DNA of 64,000 nucleotides from Actinobacteria bacterium casp-actino5 (GTDB lineage Bacteria; Actinomycetota; Acidimicrobiia; Acidimicrobiales; Ilumatobacteraceae): assembly GCA_001510385.1 (NCBI GenBank), contig LFFE01000015.1, forward strand, positions 62,001-126,000, read 5' to 3'. Shown piece by piece: positions 29,485 through 59,566 of the stretch. The stretch's first letter is position 1; each line of letters opens with the position of its first letter. The translations under genes were made by a program, and so were the position numbers. The notes beneath the pieces were generated by a model, which made no database searches, was not told the DNA's origin, and worked only from the letters and a program-made list of their open reading frames with translations.

Positions 29485-29557
29485 TGGGCGATACGGGCCT
29501 CGATCCCATGACCTCCACGGTGTGAACGTGGCGCTCTTCCAACTGAGCTAATCGCCC
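29485..29557 (-). tRNA. tRNA-Val (anticodon CAC)
   Basis: Read on the minus strand the 73 bases fold as a full cloverleaf: acceptor stem GGGCGAT/ATCGCCC, D arm GCTC...GAGC, anticodon stem CCACG/CGTGG with loop TTCACAC (anticodon CAC), T stem ATGGG/CCCGT, and discriminator A at 29485. The T loop starts ATCGA rather than TTCGA. The CCA end is not encoded. Confidence 0.95.
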
Positions 29558-54479: not shown

Positions 54480-56744
54480 ATGTCCGTGAGCGCCTCAACA
54501 CCGATCGAACTCGTCAACGCTGTCTACGCATCTCTCCCCGAGAGAGTTTCCCTTGGGCGCACCCGTTTGGGTCGCCCTCTCACACTTGCCGAGAAGATTC
54601 TTATCAATCATCTTGACGACCCTCAGGGTCAGGAGATGGAGCGCGGAGTCTCATATGCGGACTTCAACCCTGATCGCGTTGCGATGCAGGACGCGACGGC
54701 CCAGATGGCTCTGCTTCAGTTCATGACAGCCGGGCTTCCCGAGGCAGCAGTCCCATCGACAGTTCACTGTGACCACCTCATCCAGGCGAAGGTTGGCGCC
54801 TCGATTGACCTCGGAGTGGCAGTCGACACGAACCGCGAGGTTTACGACTTCCTCAGGAGCGTTTCGGCCAAGTACGGAATCGGCTTCTGGGGTCCCGGAT
54901 CTGGAATTATCCACCAGGTGGTGCTTGAGAACTACGCATTCCCTGGTGGGATGATGATCGGGACCGATTCGCATACGCCAAATGCTGGCGGCCTTGGGAT
55001 GATCGCGATCGGCGTTGGTGGTGCCGATGCAGTCGATGTGATGACCGGCTTCCCTTGGAATGTCCGCTGGCCGAAGGTCATTGGTATTCATCTCACGGGG
55101 TCACTGAGCGGTTGGGCCTCACCAAAGGACGTCATTCTGGAAGTTGCACGTCTGCTCACAGTTGAAGGTGGCACGGGAGCCATCGTGGAGTACCACGGGC
55201 CCGGTGCAGACTCAATTTCAGCGACTGGCAAAGCAACCATCTGCAATATGGGAGCTGAAATCGGTGCAACAACTTCCGTGTTCGCATACGACTCGAATAT
55301 GTCGGATTATCTCCGTTCGACTGGCAGGGTGGCCATCGCTTCGGCAGCCGACGCTGTCGCCGATGATCTGCGGCCAGATGAAGGAGCAACGTACGACCAG
55401 GTGATTGAGATCAACCTGAGTGATCTCCGTCCGATGATCAACGGCCCTCATTCACCAGACCGCGCACACCGCACTGGTTCCGAGGTTGGCACAGCCGCGA
55501 CCGAAAACGGATGGCCGCTTGAGGTTTCAGCGGCACTCATCGGTTCATGCACGAACTCTTCATACGAAGATCTGACGAGAGCCGCCTCTATCGCCCGACA
55601 GGCAGCCGCACGCGGTTTGACCTCAAAAGTTGACCTGCTCATCACCCCAGGCTCGGAGCAAACCCGCGCGACGATTGAGCGGGACGGCATCCTTGCCGAT
55701 CTTGAAGCGGTCGGAGCAACGGTGCTCGCCAATGCCTGCGGGCCATGCATTGGCCAATGGAGCCGTCCCGAAGAAGCAACTGCGGTTCCGAATTCGATTG
55801 TGAACTCGTTTAACCGAAACTTCCCAAAACGCAACGACGGATCCTCAAACACCCTCTCGTTTGTCACATCACCGGACACCGTGATGGCGATCGCCCTATC
55901 GGGTCGGCTCGACTTCGACCCAGTGACTGACACCATCACAGCTCCTGATGGCACAGAGGTGTCGCTTGACGCCCCCGTTGGTGAAGTATTGCCGGCAGAC
56001 GGCTACGACCCAGGCGAGGACACCTTTACCGCCCCGCCATCGGATCGAAGTGGCGTTGACGTCGTCGTTGCACCCACGAGCGATCGTTTGCAACTTCTCG
56101 ATCCATTCAACGCATGGGATGGCAATGACTACGAAGGCCTTCCCGTACTTATGAAAGCCCAAGGAAAGTGCACAACCGACCACATTTCTGCCGCGGGCCC
56201 CTGGTTGAAATACCGAGGACACCTCGAAAACATCTCAGGCAACCTATTTGCCGGTGCAGTAAATGCGTTCGATGATGCAGTTGGAATCGGACTTGATGTC
56301 ACCGACGGCGACCGTCGCACCTACCCTGAAATTGCTCGTCGCTACCACGAGGCAGGAATCAAGTGGGTTGCGATTGGAGACCGCAACTATGGCGAAGGTT
56401 CCTCGCGTGAACATGCAGCGATGGAACCACGTTTCCGAAATGGTGTCGCAGTTATTGCACGATCATTTGCACGTATTCACGAAACCAACCTCAAGAAACA
56501 GGGACTACTCCCGTTGACGTTTGCTGATCCAGATTCCTATGAACAAATTGGCGAGGAGGATCGCATTGCTCTCCGCGATCTCCCACCGGTACCAGGCCAG
56601 AATGTTCGCTGTGTCGCAACACGTCCGGATGGGTCGACCTACGAATTTGAGACAATCCACACGTTCAGCCCCGAGCAAGTCGAGTGGTTCATCGCTGGTT
56701 CGGCATTGAACATCGTTCGCGCGAAAGTTGCTGCTGAGTCATAA
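54480..56744 (+). CDS. Aconitate hydratase, mitochondrial-like type
   Basis: Iron-sulfur enzyme converting citrate to isocitrate. From the ATG at 54480 the product is 754 residues. The cluster cysteines are in [13 protein letters not shown] and [14 protein letters not shown]; other signatures are [40 protein letters not shown], and [19 protein letters not shown]. The length and motifs resemble the mitochondrial-type enzyme rather than AcnA (about 890) or AcnB. The gene for citrate synthase lies 3 kb downstream. A LysR gene follows after the RNA region. Confidence 0.95.
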
Positions 56745-57063
56745 TTTGCCGCATAGGCGGCCTGGAAACGAACGAAACTTCATCCGGTCGCCGCAAATAG
56801 CGACGCCTTGTCATCACGGATTCCCAGCTCATCACGGTGCCCCTTGTCAGGGGTTTTGTGCACGATGCTGACGCGGCGAAGCTGCTCGTATCTACGGTTG
56901 AGCGATTCAGAGCCAGATCCCGCTTACGGCGCAGTTTCAGCACGAAATGTGGACCGCTCTCTCCACCACGAACGACGTCGACGCCTATCGAAGCCGAAGG
57001 TACTGGTATTGAACGCCGGTTCGCATTCGCTCTGGGTCGCAGCCAGAAGTGCCTAGTGGCCCG

Positions 57064-57100
57064 AAAAAAGGGAAACGTCCCGGTGGGGGGGCCGGGACGT
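57064..57100 (-). terminator. Intrinsic terminator at the 3' end of the 6C-like RNA
   Basis: The nine-pair hairpin 57100-57075 is followed on the minus strand by TTTCCCTTTTTT with six T at 57069-57064. This is the usual end of 6C RNAs. The broken T-run makes it slightly weaker than a classical terminator. Confidence 0.68.
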
Positions 57101-57155
57101 CTCAACCTGGAATCCCTTTCGGGTTCCTCGAGCGGTACGTTGGGGGGTGTTCCGC
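57064..57155 (-). ncRNA. 6C-type actinobacterial small RNA (probable)
   Basis: Read on the minus strand, the stretch forms two C-rich-loop hairpins, the hallmark of the 6C RNA. Hairpin 1 (57155-57132): GCGGAAC and GTACCGC, seven pairs with one A-A mismatch, loop with six C in a row. Hairpin 2 (57100-57075): ACGTCCCGG and CCGGGACGT, nine perfect pairs, loop CCCCCCCA with seven C. Between them a small GAAA-tetraloop stem (57127-57109) with a bulged A is an extra. The RNA lies in the 495-base gap between aconitase and LysR, opposite to both. TAAATA (57166-57161) could be its -10. In mycobacteria the 6C RNA is the B11 sRNA; C-rich loops pair with G-rich ribosome-binding regions. Confidence 0.75.
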
Positions 57156-57239
57156 ATCGATATTTACTTGTGAAAGTATGCACGTGTTTTTGTGCATCTT
57201 GCAACCATATATCGCAGATACCCAGTATCATTTTTAGAG

Positions 57240-58154
57240 ATGGACTTTCGCCAACTCTCCACCTTGATTGCAATAGCAGATCACGGAAGTTTCTCAGCTG
57301 CCGCTAGGGCGCTCTACACAGTGCAGTCAAATGTTTCCGCCCACATCGGACGACTTGAGAAAGAGCTTGGTTCGACACTTATCGATCGCCAAACCGGTCG
57401 CATGACAGATGACGGGCGCCGGGTTCTCGAGCGAGCTCGTCGAATCATGCACGAAATGGATGACATCCGATCAGATATGGAGTCAAACGACCACGACGTG
57501 AGCGGAGATGTGCGAATCGGTGTCATCGGCACGATTGCGAGATGGGCGATACCCCCGATGTTGCGCCAAATGGCTGATAGTCACCCACGGGTGCATGCTG
57601 TTGTGACTGAAGGAAGCTCGTCCGCCCTTGCCCCGAACGTTGTATCAGGGCTACTCAATGCGGCCATTCTCCACCTTCCAATTGACGACCCTGATCTCGT
57701 GATCGAGCCCCTCTTCGACGAAGAGCTCTTACTGCTCGCACCTCACGATCACCCTCTTTCGGAGCGAGAGTCCATCGACATCACCGACCTCGACGGAGTT
57801 CCGCTCTTGCTCCCACCGGCGGGAGCTGGATTACGCCGGATCATCGAACGCAGTTCACTCGAGCGAGGAGTATCACTGAACTCGCTCGCAGAAGTCGACA
57901 GCATGCGCTTACTCGCGGCGCTTGCCGTTGACGGCCACGGTGCCACCATCGTGCCAGCGACCGCTCTCTCAGAAACCGAACTCGTTGGAGCTGCGATGGT
58001 TCATGTAAGTGGGCTTCCTCGACGCCGCGTCGCATGGGTTCGCCGACAGCGCCCAAATCCATCCGCTGCAACTCGGGCAGTTCACGATGTCATTTCCAAT
58101 GTCATCGGACAACGAATCAGCGAAGACCAAGGCCTCCATAGCGGAGAACAGTAA
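57240..58154 (+). CDS. LysR-family transcriptional regulator
   Basis: From the ATG at 57240 the product is 304 residues: N-terminal HTH FSAAARALYTVQSNVSAHIGRLEKELG and a periplasmic-binding-fold effector domain (LLLAPHDHPLSERESID). It starts MDFRQLSTLIAIADHGSFSAAA, a standard LysR N-terminus; the frame open back to 57192 is not. Target unknown; the neighbours are aconitase, carboxyltransferase and citrate synthase. No convincing T-N11-A site was picked out. Confidence 0.9.
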   Translation: MDFRQLSTLIAIADHGSFSAAARALYTVQSNVSAHIGRLEKELGSTLIDRQTGRMTDDGRRVLERARRIMHEMDDIRSDMESNDHDVSGDVRIGVIGTIARWAIPPMLRQMADSHPRVHAVVTEGSSSALAPNVVSGLLNAAILHLPIDDPDLVIEPLFDEELLLLAPHDHPLSERESIDITDLDGVPLLLPPAGAGLRRIIERSSLERGVSLNSLAEVDSMRLLAALAVDGHGATIVPATALSETELVGAAMVHVSGLPRRRVAWVRRQRPNPSAATRAVHDVISNVIGQRISEDQGLHSGEQ

Positions 58155-58216: not shown

Positions 58217-59566
58217 ATGACCCTCGAGGACGTTGGCATTGCTGCAGGAATTCCTGCTCCTGTTTCTGCCCGCGTTACTCGACTCGATGACCGAAAAGTG
58301 ATGTGGATCGAATTCGATCCAAGCGAGACAGCCCATCCTCTGTCGTCGCAAATGACAACGATCATCACGGAAGGTTTACGCACCGCACTCGATGAGCTCA
58401 TCCCTGTTGTCCTGGTCGTGAACAGTTCGGGGGCTGACATTGCCGAAGGAGTCGCCCCATTACACGGCTGGGGACTTGCTGCGAGACTGCTGACCAAGTG
58501 TTCAGGGCGTGTGCCGACCTTCGCAATTGTGGACGGACCAGCTGTCTCTGGACCGGCGTTACTTCTCGGCCTCGTCGACTTCGTCGTCATGACTTCCACG
58601 TCCTACGCGTTCGTGAACGGCCCACTCATCATTCGACAGTTCACCGGTGTTGAAATCTCAAAAGATGAGCTTGGGAGCGCTTCCACCATGGAACGCTCAG
58701 CAGGCCTTGCCACGGCCGTGGCCGGAAGTCGCGAGGAGGGTCGAGACTTGATTGAGGCGATCCTGACGTACCTACCGGACCGAGTCGATGCCGAGCCGGC
58801 ACGGTTAGCAAGTTCGGACGATGCTCGGCGCCTCACCCCCGAAGCCGGCGAGTACATCCCAGAGACAGCAACTGGAAGTTACGACGTTCGATCGATCATC
58901 GAATCATTGGTTGACGACGGGGAGTACCTAGAAATCAGGCCCCTCTGGGCGCAGAACATCGTCACAACGTTTGCCGCAATGGATGGTCGGCCGGTTGGAA
59001 TCGTCGCCAACCAACCAATGGCTCTTGCGGGAACGCTTGACATCCCGGCTTCCCAGAAAGCAGCACGTTTCGTCAACCTGTGTGACGCGTTCAACATCCC
59101 GATCATCACCCTGGTCGACACCCCGGGTTTTTACCCCGGCAAAGATCTCGAATGGCGTGGAATGATCCGGCATGGAGCACAACTCGTCTACGCATACGGC
59201 CAGGCAACAGTACCGCGGATCTGTGTCATCCTCCGCAAGAGTTATGGCGGCGCCTACATCGTTATGGATTCGAAAAAAATGGGCAACGACGTTTGTCTTG
59301 CCTGGCCTTGGGCCGAACTTGCGGTGATGGGGGCTGGCCAAGCCTCCGCGATCTTGCGCCGAGGTGCCACAGACGACGAACGAATTGCATTCGAAAGCGA
59401 CTACTCCGAGCGTTTATTGAATCCATACATTGCAGCCGAACGTGGGTACGTCGATGATGTCATTGACCCTGCGGATACCCGCTCAACCATCTGCGCCTCG
59501 CTTTCGATGTTGTCAAACAAGCGCGATCGGCGTCCAAGCCGCCGCCACGGCAACTCCCCTCTCTGA
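58217..59566 (+). CDS. Acyl-CoA carboxylase carboxyltransferase (AccD-like)
   Basis: Carboxyltransferase-family protein of 449 residues, short for an acyl-CoA carboxylase beta subunit (500-540). Its C-terminal half is clear: VGIVANQPMALAGTLDIPASQKAARFVNLCDAFNIPIITLVDTPGFYPGKD reduced to its core VDTPGFYPG, the second oxyanion hole SYGGAYIVMDSKKMGND, and AWPWAELAVMGAGQA. The N-terminal half is divergent. Mycobacterial AccD3 is of similar size. No biotin carboxylase gene is adjacent. It precedes citrate synthase by 96 bases. Confidence 0.85.
   Translation: MTLEDVGIAAGIPAPVSARVTRLDDRKVMWIEFDPSETAHPLSSQMTTIITEGLRTALDELIPVVLVVNSSGADIAEGVAPLHGWGLAARLLTKCSGRVPTFAIVDGPAVSGPALLLGLVDFVVMTSTSYAFVNGPLIIRQFTGVEISKDELGSASTMERSAGLATAVAGSREEGRDLIEAILTYLPDRVDAEPARLASSDDARRLTPEAGEYIPETATGSYDVRSIIESLVDDGEYLEIRPLWAQNIVTTFAAMDGRPVGIVANQPMALAGTLDIPASQKAARFVNLCDAFNIPIITLVDTPGFYPGKDLEWRGMIRHGAQLVYAYGQATVPRICVILRKSYGGAYIVMDSKKMGNDVCLAWPWAELAVMGAGQASAILRRGATDDERIAFESDYSERLLNPYIAAERGYVDDVIDPADTRSTICASLSMLSNKRDRRPSRRHGNSPL

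Follow-up and report, generated by a model that had tools for sequence, protein, structure and literature searches.

The closest described relatives of the element reported here are the actinobacterial 6C RNAs and the mycobacterial B11 RNAs. According to the portions of the published accounts on which we rely, B11 of Mycobacterium marinum folds into three stem-loops, of which the second and third are C-rich, and acts mainly through the loop of its terminator (PMC12395582), and B11 of Mycobacterium abscessus represses eccB4 through either of two C-loops, as compensating mutations indicated (PMC10470900). In both species the C-loops act on G-tracts. The 6C RNA of Corynebacterium glutamicum is about 100 nt long and carries two C8 stretches (PMC4046766, same restriction). 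Rfam classes 6C (RF01066) as a cis-regulatory element, whereas the mycobacterial work describes action in trans.

Structure and position of the element

The window, that is the whole stretch of 64,000 nt analysed here, contains an aconitase gene and a LysR-type regulator gene separated by a 495-nt gap (aconitase end at 56744, LysR ATG at 57240), and the element lies inside this gap. Its features and those of its neighbours are the following.

57062..57165, minus strand: 6C-like small RNA (model boundaries; 94.7 bits with model R2)
about 57168 to 57069-57064, minus strand: RNA ends, the predicted start being placed from the position of the -10 box and the 3' end within the T-run
57129..57159, minus strand: hairpin 1, weak, with a C6 loop at 57142-57147 (from the fold)
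57109..57127, minus strand: hairpin 2, with a GAAA loop at 57117-57120 (7-bp stem, one bulge)
57101..57108, minus strand: conserved linker AGGTTGAG into hairpin 3 (GGT.GAGA columns invariant in alignment A1, 17 sequences)
57072..57103, minus strand: hairpin 3, with a C7 loop at 57085-57091, Rho-independent terminator stem (12 bp; helix 4 of the covariation analysis)
57064..57069, minus strand: terminator T6 tract, with CC between it and the stem (sequence and terminator scan)
57175..57204, minus strand: predicted RNA promoter TTGCAA-N18-CATACT (pattern conserved in relatives)
57217..57229, no strand assigned: GATA-N5-TATC inverted repeat, putative LysR operator (conserved in LysR-RNA gaps)
57240..58154, plus strand: LysR-type regulator gene, divergent from the RNA (PF00126, PF03466)
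58217..59566, plus strand: acyl-CoA carboxylase-type carboxyltransferase gene, conserved next gene after LysR (PF01039; cluster c0)
54480..56744, plus strand: aconitate hydratase gene, convergent with the RNA (TIGR01340, 1071 bits)

The original prediction of two hairpins with C6 and C7 loops and a T-rich end was confirmed on the minus strand, from 57165 to 57062. The C7 hairpin does double as a terminator: with its 12 pairs followed by T6, it is the single site found in a terminator scan of 56900-57400, where shuffled sequences gave 0.4 sites on average. Folding of the minus strand (111 nt) yielded a z-score of -4.2, with none of 200 shuffles equal or better, and the plus strand a z-score of -1.4, with 24 of 200 shuffles as good. 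The RNA had also been called antisense, a term which does not apply, as no gene lies opposite it in antisense: relative to LysR it runs divergently, and with the aconitase gene it is placed tail-to-tail, about 318 nt from the end of the latter. The only Rfam match at gathering scores in the window is a tRNA gene (29485-29557, minus strand).

Conservation and C-loops in the family

Covariance model R1 was built from the 17 sequences of alignment A1, the window included. For this reason a further model, R3, was built from the 20 sequences of alignment A4, none of which belongs to the window's genus. On the window, R3 returned 57062-57165 with 86 bits and an E value of 1.9e-18, and nothing else in the 64 kb up to E 10; as A4 had previously been aligned with R1, this model is not wholly independent. 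A 151-base DNA query aligned along most of its length in 12 of the 16 genomes of the genus (the window's own included); in a thirteenth the match covered 32 bases. With R1, matches were obtained at E<=0.1 in 189 of the 221 genomes of the family and in all 27 genera, some of them weak (E up to 0.04); we counted 12 genomes among the 189 with multiple matches. It is mainly this conservation that excludes a chance origin of the hairpins. One locus per genome was then read for 119 genomes, mostly the better-scoring of the 189, which cover 23 of the 27 genera (99 loci in alignment A3, 20 in A4; genera g10, g14, g15 and g23 are absent).

Outside this family, f1, R1 matched ten genomes when 198 of the class were searched (E 7e-4 to 0.08). 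Those at L081, L083-L088 and L090 were rejected as terminators without C-loops, from folds judged by eye, and L089 was judged by reading the sequence, without a fold. L082:1501-1618 and L092:1501-1608, both of family f26, have C-run loops in terminator-like hairpins and weakly match the unrelated Rfam families ar14 and ftsZ-DE. Model R2, applied to 148 genomes of the order, matched 12 outside f1. Two or three C-loop hairpins were seen, by eye, in the folds of L217, L218, L219 and L222, which belong to other families of the order, and a C-run on the last hairpin only at L223 and L226; folds of L216, L220, L221, L224, L225, L228 and L087 had no C-loop hairpin, and these were discarded. L227, a second R2 match in genome G019 (39.9 bits), was dropped for lack of C-loops; the same genome has a third R2 match (E 0.018). 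Finally, a 20-base pattern from hairpin 1 was found in 15 records among named genomes: 6 from Ilumatobacteraceae or Ilumatobacter, 2 from Acidimicrobiia or Acidimicrobiales, 2 from Acidimicrobiaceae and 3 from Actinomycetota. The remaining two, exact matches in Pseudomonas (L213) and Oceanimonas (L201), have no R3 match and were taken as chance.

Covariation was analysed on the 98 distinct sequences of A3. Standard pairs made up 90.5% of the pair cells, against 72.7% in shuffles (none of 500 shuffles reached 90.5%) and 41-57% when the structure was slid along the alignment. Both sides had changed in 26 of the 32 pairs, and double changes numbered 510 where 135 were expected; fitting the alignment to the structure makes such figures look better than they are, but this last difference is still large. 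G-U cells outnumbered A-C cells by 200 to 79, or 118 to 79 when one pair was omitted, an excess that favours the minus strand as the RNA. One hairpin being a terminator, the conserved stretch might amount to a strong terminator region, or to inverted repeats acting as DNA (for instance through protein binding or a G-quadruplex), with no regulatory RNA. We regard this as very improbable in view of the promoter-like pattern conserved upstream, the three covarying hairpins, the C-runs in their loops and the bias of G-U pairs to one strand. Two open frames, of 194 and 156 codons, do cross the element, which could accordingly be imagined to lie inside a coding sequence. This is hardly credible, as homologues range from 98 to 129 nt with differences that are not multiples of three, and the substitutions are paired.

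The C-runs of the RNA were compared over the 119 loci. A run of at least 4 C is found in the loop of hairpin 1 at all of them, and in the loop of hairpin 2 at 107, the 12 exceptions all belonging to the window's genus. All three loops carry one at 84 loci, hairpins 1 and 2 only at 23, and hairpins 1 and 3 only at 12. The window's genus contributes 13 loci, 12 lacking the hairpin-2 C-run and the thirteenth (G051) keeping it, having lost instead that of hairpin 3. Runs are 4 to 7 C long, with one C11 outlier, L021:1536-1638 (G089), where the third (terminator) stem is also broken; either decay or an assembly error may be involved there. The GAAA-capped stem between the C-loop hairpins, initially noted as an addition not familiar from the 6C consensus, is real, and finds an explanation here. 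Because the hairpin-2 C-run is kept at 107 of 119 loci and missing only in this genus, the stem is, by comparison with its relatives, the homologue of their middle C-loop hairpin, with its C-run lost in the window's genus. The counts do not establish that at least two C-loops are required: with losses at 12 and 23 of 119 loci, independence would predict some 2.3 double losses, and none was seen, among genomes that are related.

Relation to 6C RNA

A covariance search with the Rfam model RF01066 (gathering score, 47 bits) had been proposed as a check of the prediction. The window had no hit at the gathering score, nor did 56740-57300 at E<=10 or the window's own genome at E<=0.001. This negative outcome is one half of what had been named beforehand as refuting the prediction, the other half being the lack of a transcript. 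The 6C-type reading stood in part: it is carried by models derived from relatives, which do find the element, and not by RF01066. In the family, RF01066 matched 13 of 200 genomes at E<=1, at 14 places, and no genome of the 200 exceeded the cutoff. Nine of these places (L001-L003 and L005-L010, from three genera, L005-L008 being identical over the element) are homologues of the element, and five (L004 and L011-L014) are not. L004:1501-1575, in genome G081, appears to be a separate RNA-like element with two hairpins and C6/C6 loops (34.5 bits); the main element lies elsewhere in that genome. When eight loci of the family and four of the order were scanned against Rfam with permissive filters, five matches at E<=1 were obtained, of which four were 6C at the element, below the cutoff (34-39 bits, E 0.08 to 0.63), and the fifth lay elsewhere; the other 8 of the 12 loci had no RF01066 match at E<=1. 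Among 14 control genomes a single match was obtained, in C. glutamicum, and it too was under the cutoff. Over the phylum, with strict filters, 149 genomes yielded 16 with an RF01066 match at E<=0.1, 6 of them above the cutoff, which is at odds with the near-universal distribution in the phylum assumed beforehand. Two further loci may be mentioned: L114:1501-1568, a phylum match (35.5 bits) without a C-loop on its terminator hairpin, and L095:1501-1574, from another family of the class, where a pair of C-loop hairpins resembles 6C (36.4 bits).

How far, then, does the element agree with 6C? Two hairpins have loops of about six C (C6 and C7), as in M. abscessus, where C6 and C7 loops are likewise described in the part of the report at hand (PMC10470900). 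Its terminal hairpin is a Rho-independent terminator (12 pairs, T6), and the layout of three stem-loops ending in a terminator, two of them C-rich, is that given for M. marinum in the available portion of that account (PMC12395582). It differs from 6C in staying below the RF01066 cutoff, and in the position of the C-loops, which in the window occupy hairpins 1 and 3 and not the last two. Hairpin 1 is C-looped at 119 of 119 family loci, and the hairpin-2 C-loop is mostly missing from the window's genus; at 84 of the 119 loci hairpins 2 and 3 are both C-looped, always together with hairpin 1. The name 6C-like was chosen because the element fails on the Rfam score and on the C-loop position.

Gene neighbourhoods show both agreement and difference. 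A HAD-IB hydrolase gene (TIGR01490; one member tested) lies downstream and co-directional at 89 of the 119 loci, and is absent from all 13 loci of the window's genus. Of the 11 phylum loci that RF01066 matched best (L103-L113), 7 have a HAD-IB homologue adjoining the RNA, on the 5' side and divergent, unlike the downstream gene of the family; these 7 loci represent three genera and two families, and the HAD genes, which may be orthologous, show 34-38% identity. The divergent LysR gene described below sets the family apart as well, no match to this LysR being found at E<=1e-4 in 29 loci derived from RF01066 searches.

In the same order as the window, L093:1501-1586 (G375, minus strand; family f12) is an almost canonical 6C, at 46.2 bits against the cutoff of 47. 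Its last two hairpins bear C8 and C7 loops, and the preceding hairpin lacks a C-loop. No LysR or HAD gene was found in the 2.2 kb of this locus. This RNA may be an intermediate.

A C-loop RNA might also have evolved separately from 6C and resemble it in action only. The sub-cutoff RF01066 scores throughout the family sample would agree with such convergence, as would the hairpin-1 C-loop, missing from the M. marinum 6C, and the HAD gene on the opposite side of the RNA. The R models, besides, rate RF01066 loci no higher than plain terminators: scores at those loci were 13-20, 11-23 and 10-23 bits for R1, R2 and R3 respectively (R3 giving none at L103-L105), against 21-30 bits for plain terminators, so that they were not counted as evidence of kinship. 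Against convergence, RF01066 falls on the element itself at nine of its 14 family places, a HAD-IB neighbour is common to both, and L093 lies in the same order. We consider convergence unlikely. Homology of the 6C-like element to 6C, as judged from sequence comparison, is likely, and falls short of proof.

The divergent LysR gene and a proposed role

LysR-type regulators are typically encoded divergently from the unit that they control, with an inverted repeat upstream of the regulated start. The locus has this layout. A homologue of the window's LysR gene is found upstream of the RNA and divergent from it at 116 of the 119 loci, and the gaps between the two contain a promoter-like pattern (TTG...-N16-19-CATACT-like) in 108 of 116 cases; a simple sigma-70 scan reported nothing at the RNA promoter. 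The repeat GATA-N5-TATC is present in exact form in 95 of the 116 gaps, where base-shuffled gaps gave 0.3 of 116 on average, and in relaxed form in 113 (the shuffle baseline concerns the exact form only). Its centre lies 42-43 nt before the -10 box of the RNA in 105 of the 106 gaps measured. The divergent regulator gene and an inverted repeat some 54 nt ahead of the predicted RNA start recall other divergent LysR units; the difference is that the controlled unit would here be a 6C-type RNA. In other families of the order, the same LysR-RNA-HAD order was found at L217 and L219, and its LysR part at L222; these three are the only R2 matches of the order with LysR, which was not found at L218.

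Losses of the gene were also considered. The three loci without LysR all belong to genus g25. Two of them could be read upstream (L125 in G209, L152 in G082), the third having just about 25 nt of upstream DNA; both lack the repeat as well, and both keep an RNA with three C-loops despite the loss of LysR and putative operator. Conversely, LysR was searched for in 20 genomes where the RNA was not clearly matched, namely two g10 genomes with weak matches and 18 of the 32 with none. None was detected at E<=1e-20 in 17 of the 20, including all 12 g10 genomes, although fragmented assemblies occur among the 17 (G142, G150 and G170, from the window's genus, for example), and the region may simply be missing from these. 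In the remaining three, a contig end cuts off LysR on the side expected to hold the RNA. As for the RNA in g10, 10 of the 12 genomes have no R1 match and two have weak ones (E 0.017 and 0.023) at loci that were not read; a region-wide deletion could produce the same joint absence.

From position and joint absence, the LysR gene probably controls the RNA. A somewhat doubtful alternative, to which we give less weight, is that the 6C-type RNA is constitutive and that LysR merely occupies the same gap, the repeat serving autoregulation or another neighbour. Divergent regulators are indeed common, and in 70 of the 106 gaps measured a short distance of 17 nt separates the repeat from the LysR start. 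The 6C RNA of C. glutamicum, moreover, is reported as constitutive, unchanged under the stresses tested there, in the excerpted account (PMC4046766). What speaks for LysR control is that the spacing of the repeat is fixed relative to the -10 box of the RNA and varies from 17 to 88 nt relative to LysR, and that LysR and repeat are jointly missing at the two readable g25 loci.

Candidate targets were looked for in the window's own genome, as runs of six G placed 3 to 9 nt before an ATG. There were 26 occurrences of this pattern and 11 of its reverse, an excess for which the ordinary G-rich ribosome binding site could account. Nine of 25 distinct G6 places were judged to head plausible genes, putatively encoding an aminotransferase, GatB, HpaB, a proton-antiporter-type NADH dehydrogenase subunit, a cytochrome P450, a ketoacyl synthase III and WhiB, and two products with no Pfam match at E<=1e-10. 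The list serves as a hypothesis only. Six G precede the gatB start in just 2 of 13 sequences, and five in 3, and gatB was not retained as a target. The leader of one whiB gene was compared in 15 sequences of the genus (L255-L269): at least six G were found in 9, five in 2 and a shorter run in 4. In the species nearest the window, six or seven G form the ribosome binding site of this candidate target.

Taken together, these data make it likely, in our judgement, that the locus encodes a trans-acting 6C-type RNA of about 105 nt under LysR control, with its own promoter and with its third hairpin as terminator, whose C-loops would block G-rich ribosome binding sites. The RNA would be transcribed from the predicted promoter and end at hairpin 3. 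By analogy with mycobacterial 6C/B11, its C6 and C7 loops would base-pair to G-runs in or close to ribosome binding sites, and many mRNAs would be translated less. The layout suggests that the LysR protein binds GATA-N5-TATC, about 54 nt upstream of the RNA start, and when bound switches the RNA on or off. A broader proposal, which we advance tentatively and hold to be possible, is that of a metabolite-sensing module, in which a LysR whose gene is flanked by those for aconitase and an acyl-CoA carboxylase would drive a 6C-type RNA whose three C-loop hairpins can each be replaced independently. Carbon status would then directly govern a general restraint on mRNAs whose ribosome binding sites contain G-runs, that of whiB included, and lineages would drop one C-loop or another while keeping at least two.

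The divergent LysR gene, the repeat at fixed spacing and the joint absence of LysR and RNA in most g10 genomes are new here. Among the matches listed in our literature searches there was no pairing of 6C RNA with LysR, no 6C RNA from Acidimicrobiia or related taxa, no Ilumatobacter small RNA and no small RNA divergent from LysR; in the one co-mention of 6C RNA and "lysr", the latter stands for lysyl-tRNA synthetase. The link to LysR, which was no part of the original prediction, is the more interesting side of the locus. Control of 6C has only been hinted at, through GlxR in C. glutamicum (PMC4046766) and mitomycin treatment (PMC6789036), as far as the accessible portions of these sources go, and this family provides a candidate regulator whose site is conserved. 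Our results suggest in addition that the standard RF01066 model misses 6C-type RNAs across one family of Acidimicrobiia. Lastly, as to the purpose of multiple C-loops, either loop sufficed in M. abscessus, and in M. marinum the effect came from the terminator loop, again according to partial accounts (PMC10470900, PMC12395582). On this question the family supplies natural variants that lack the middle or the terminal C-loop, as well as one genus, g10, in which regulator and RNA are mostly undetected.
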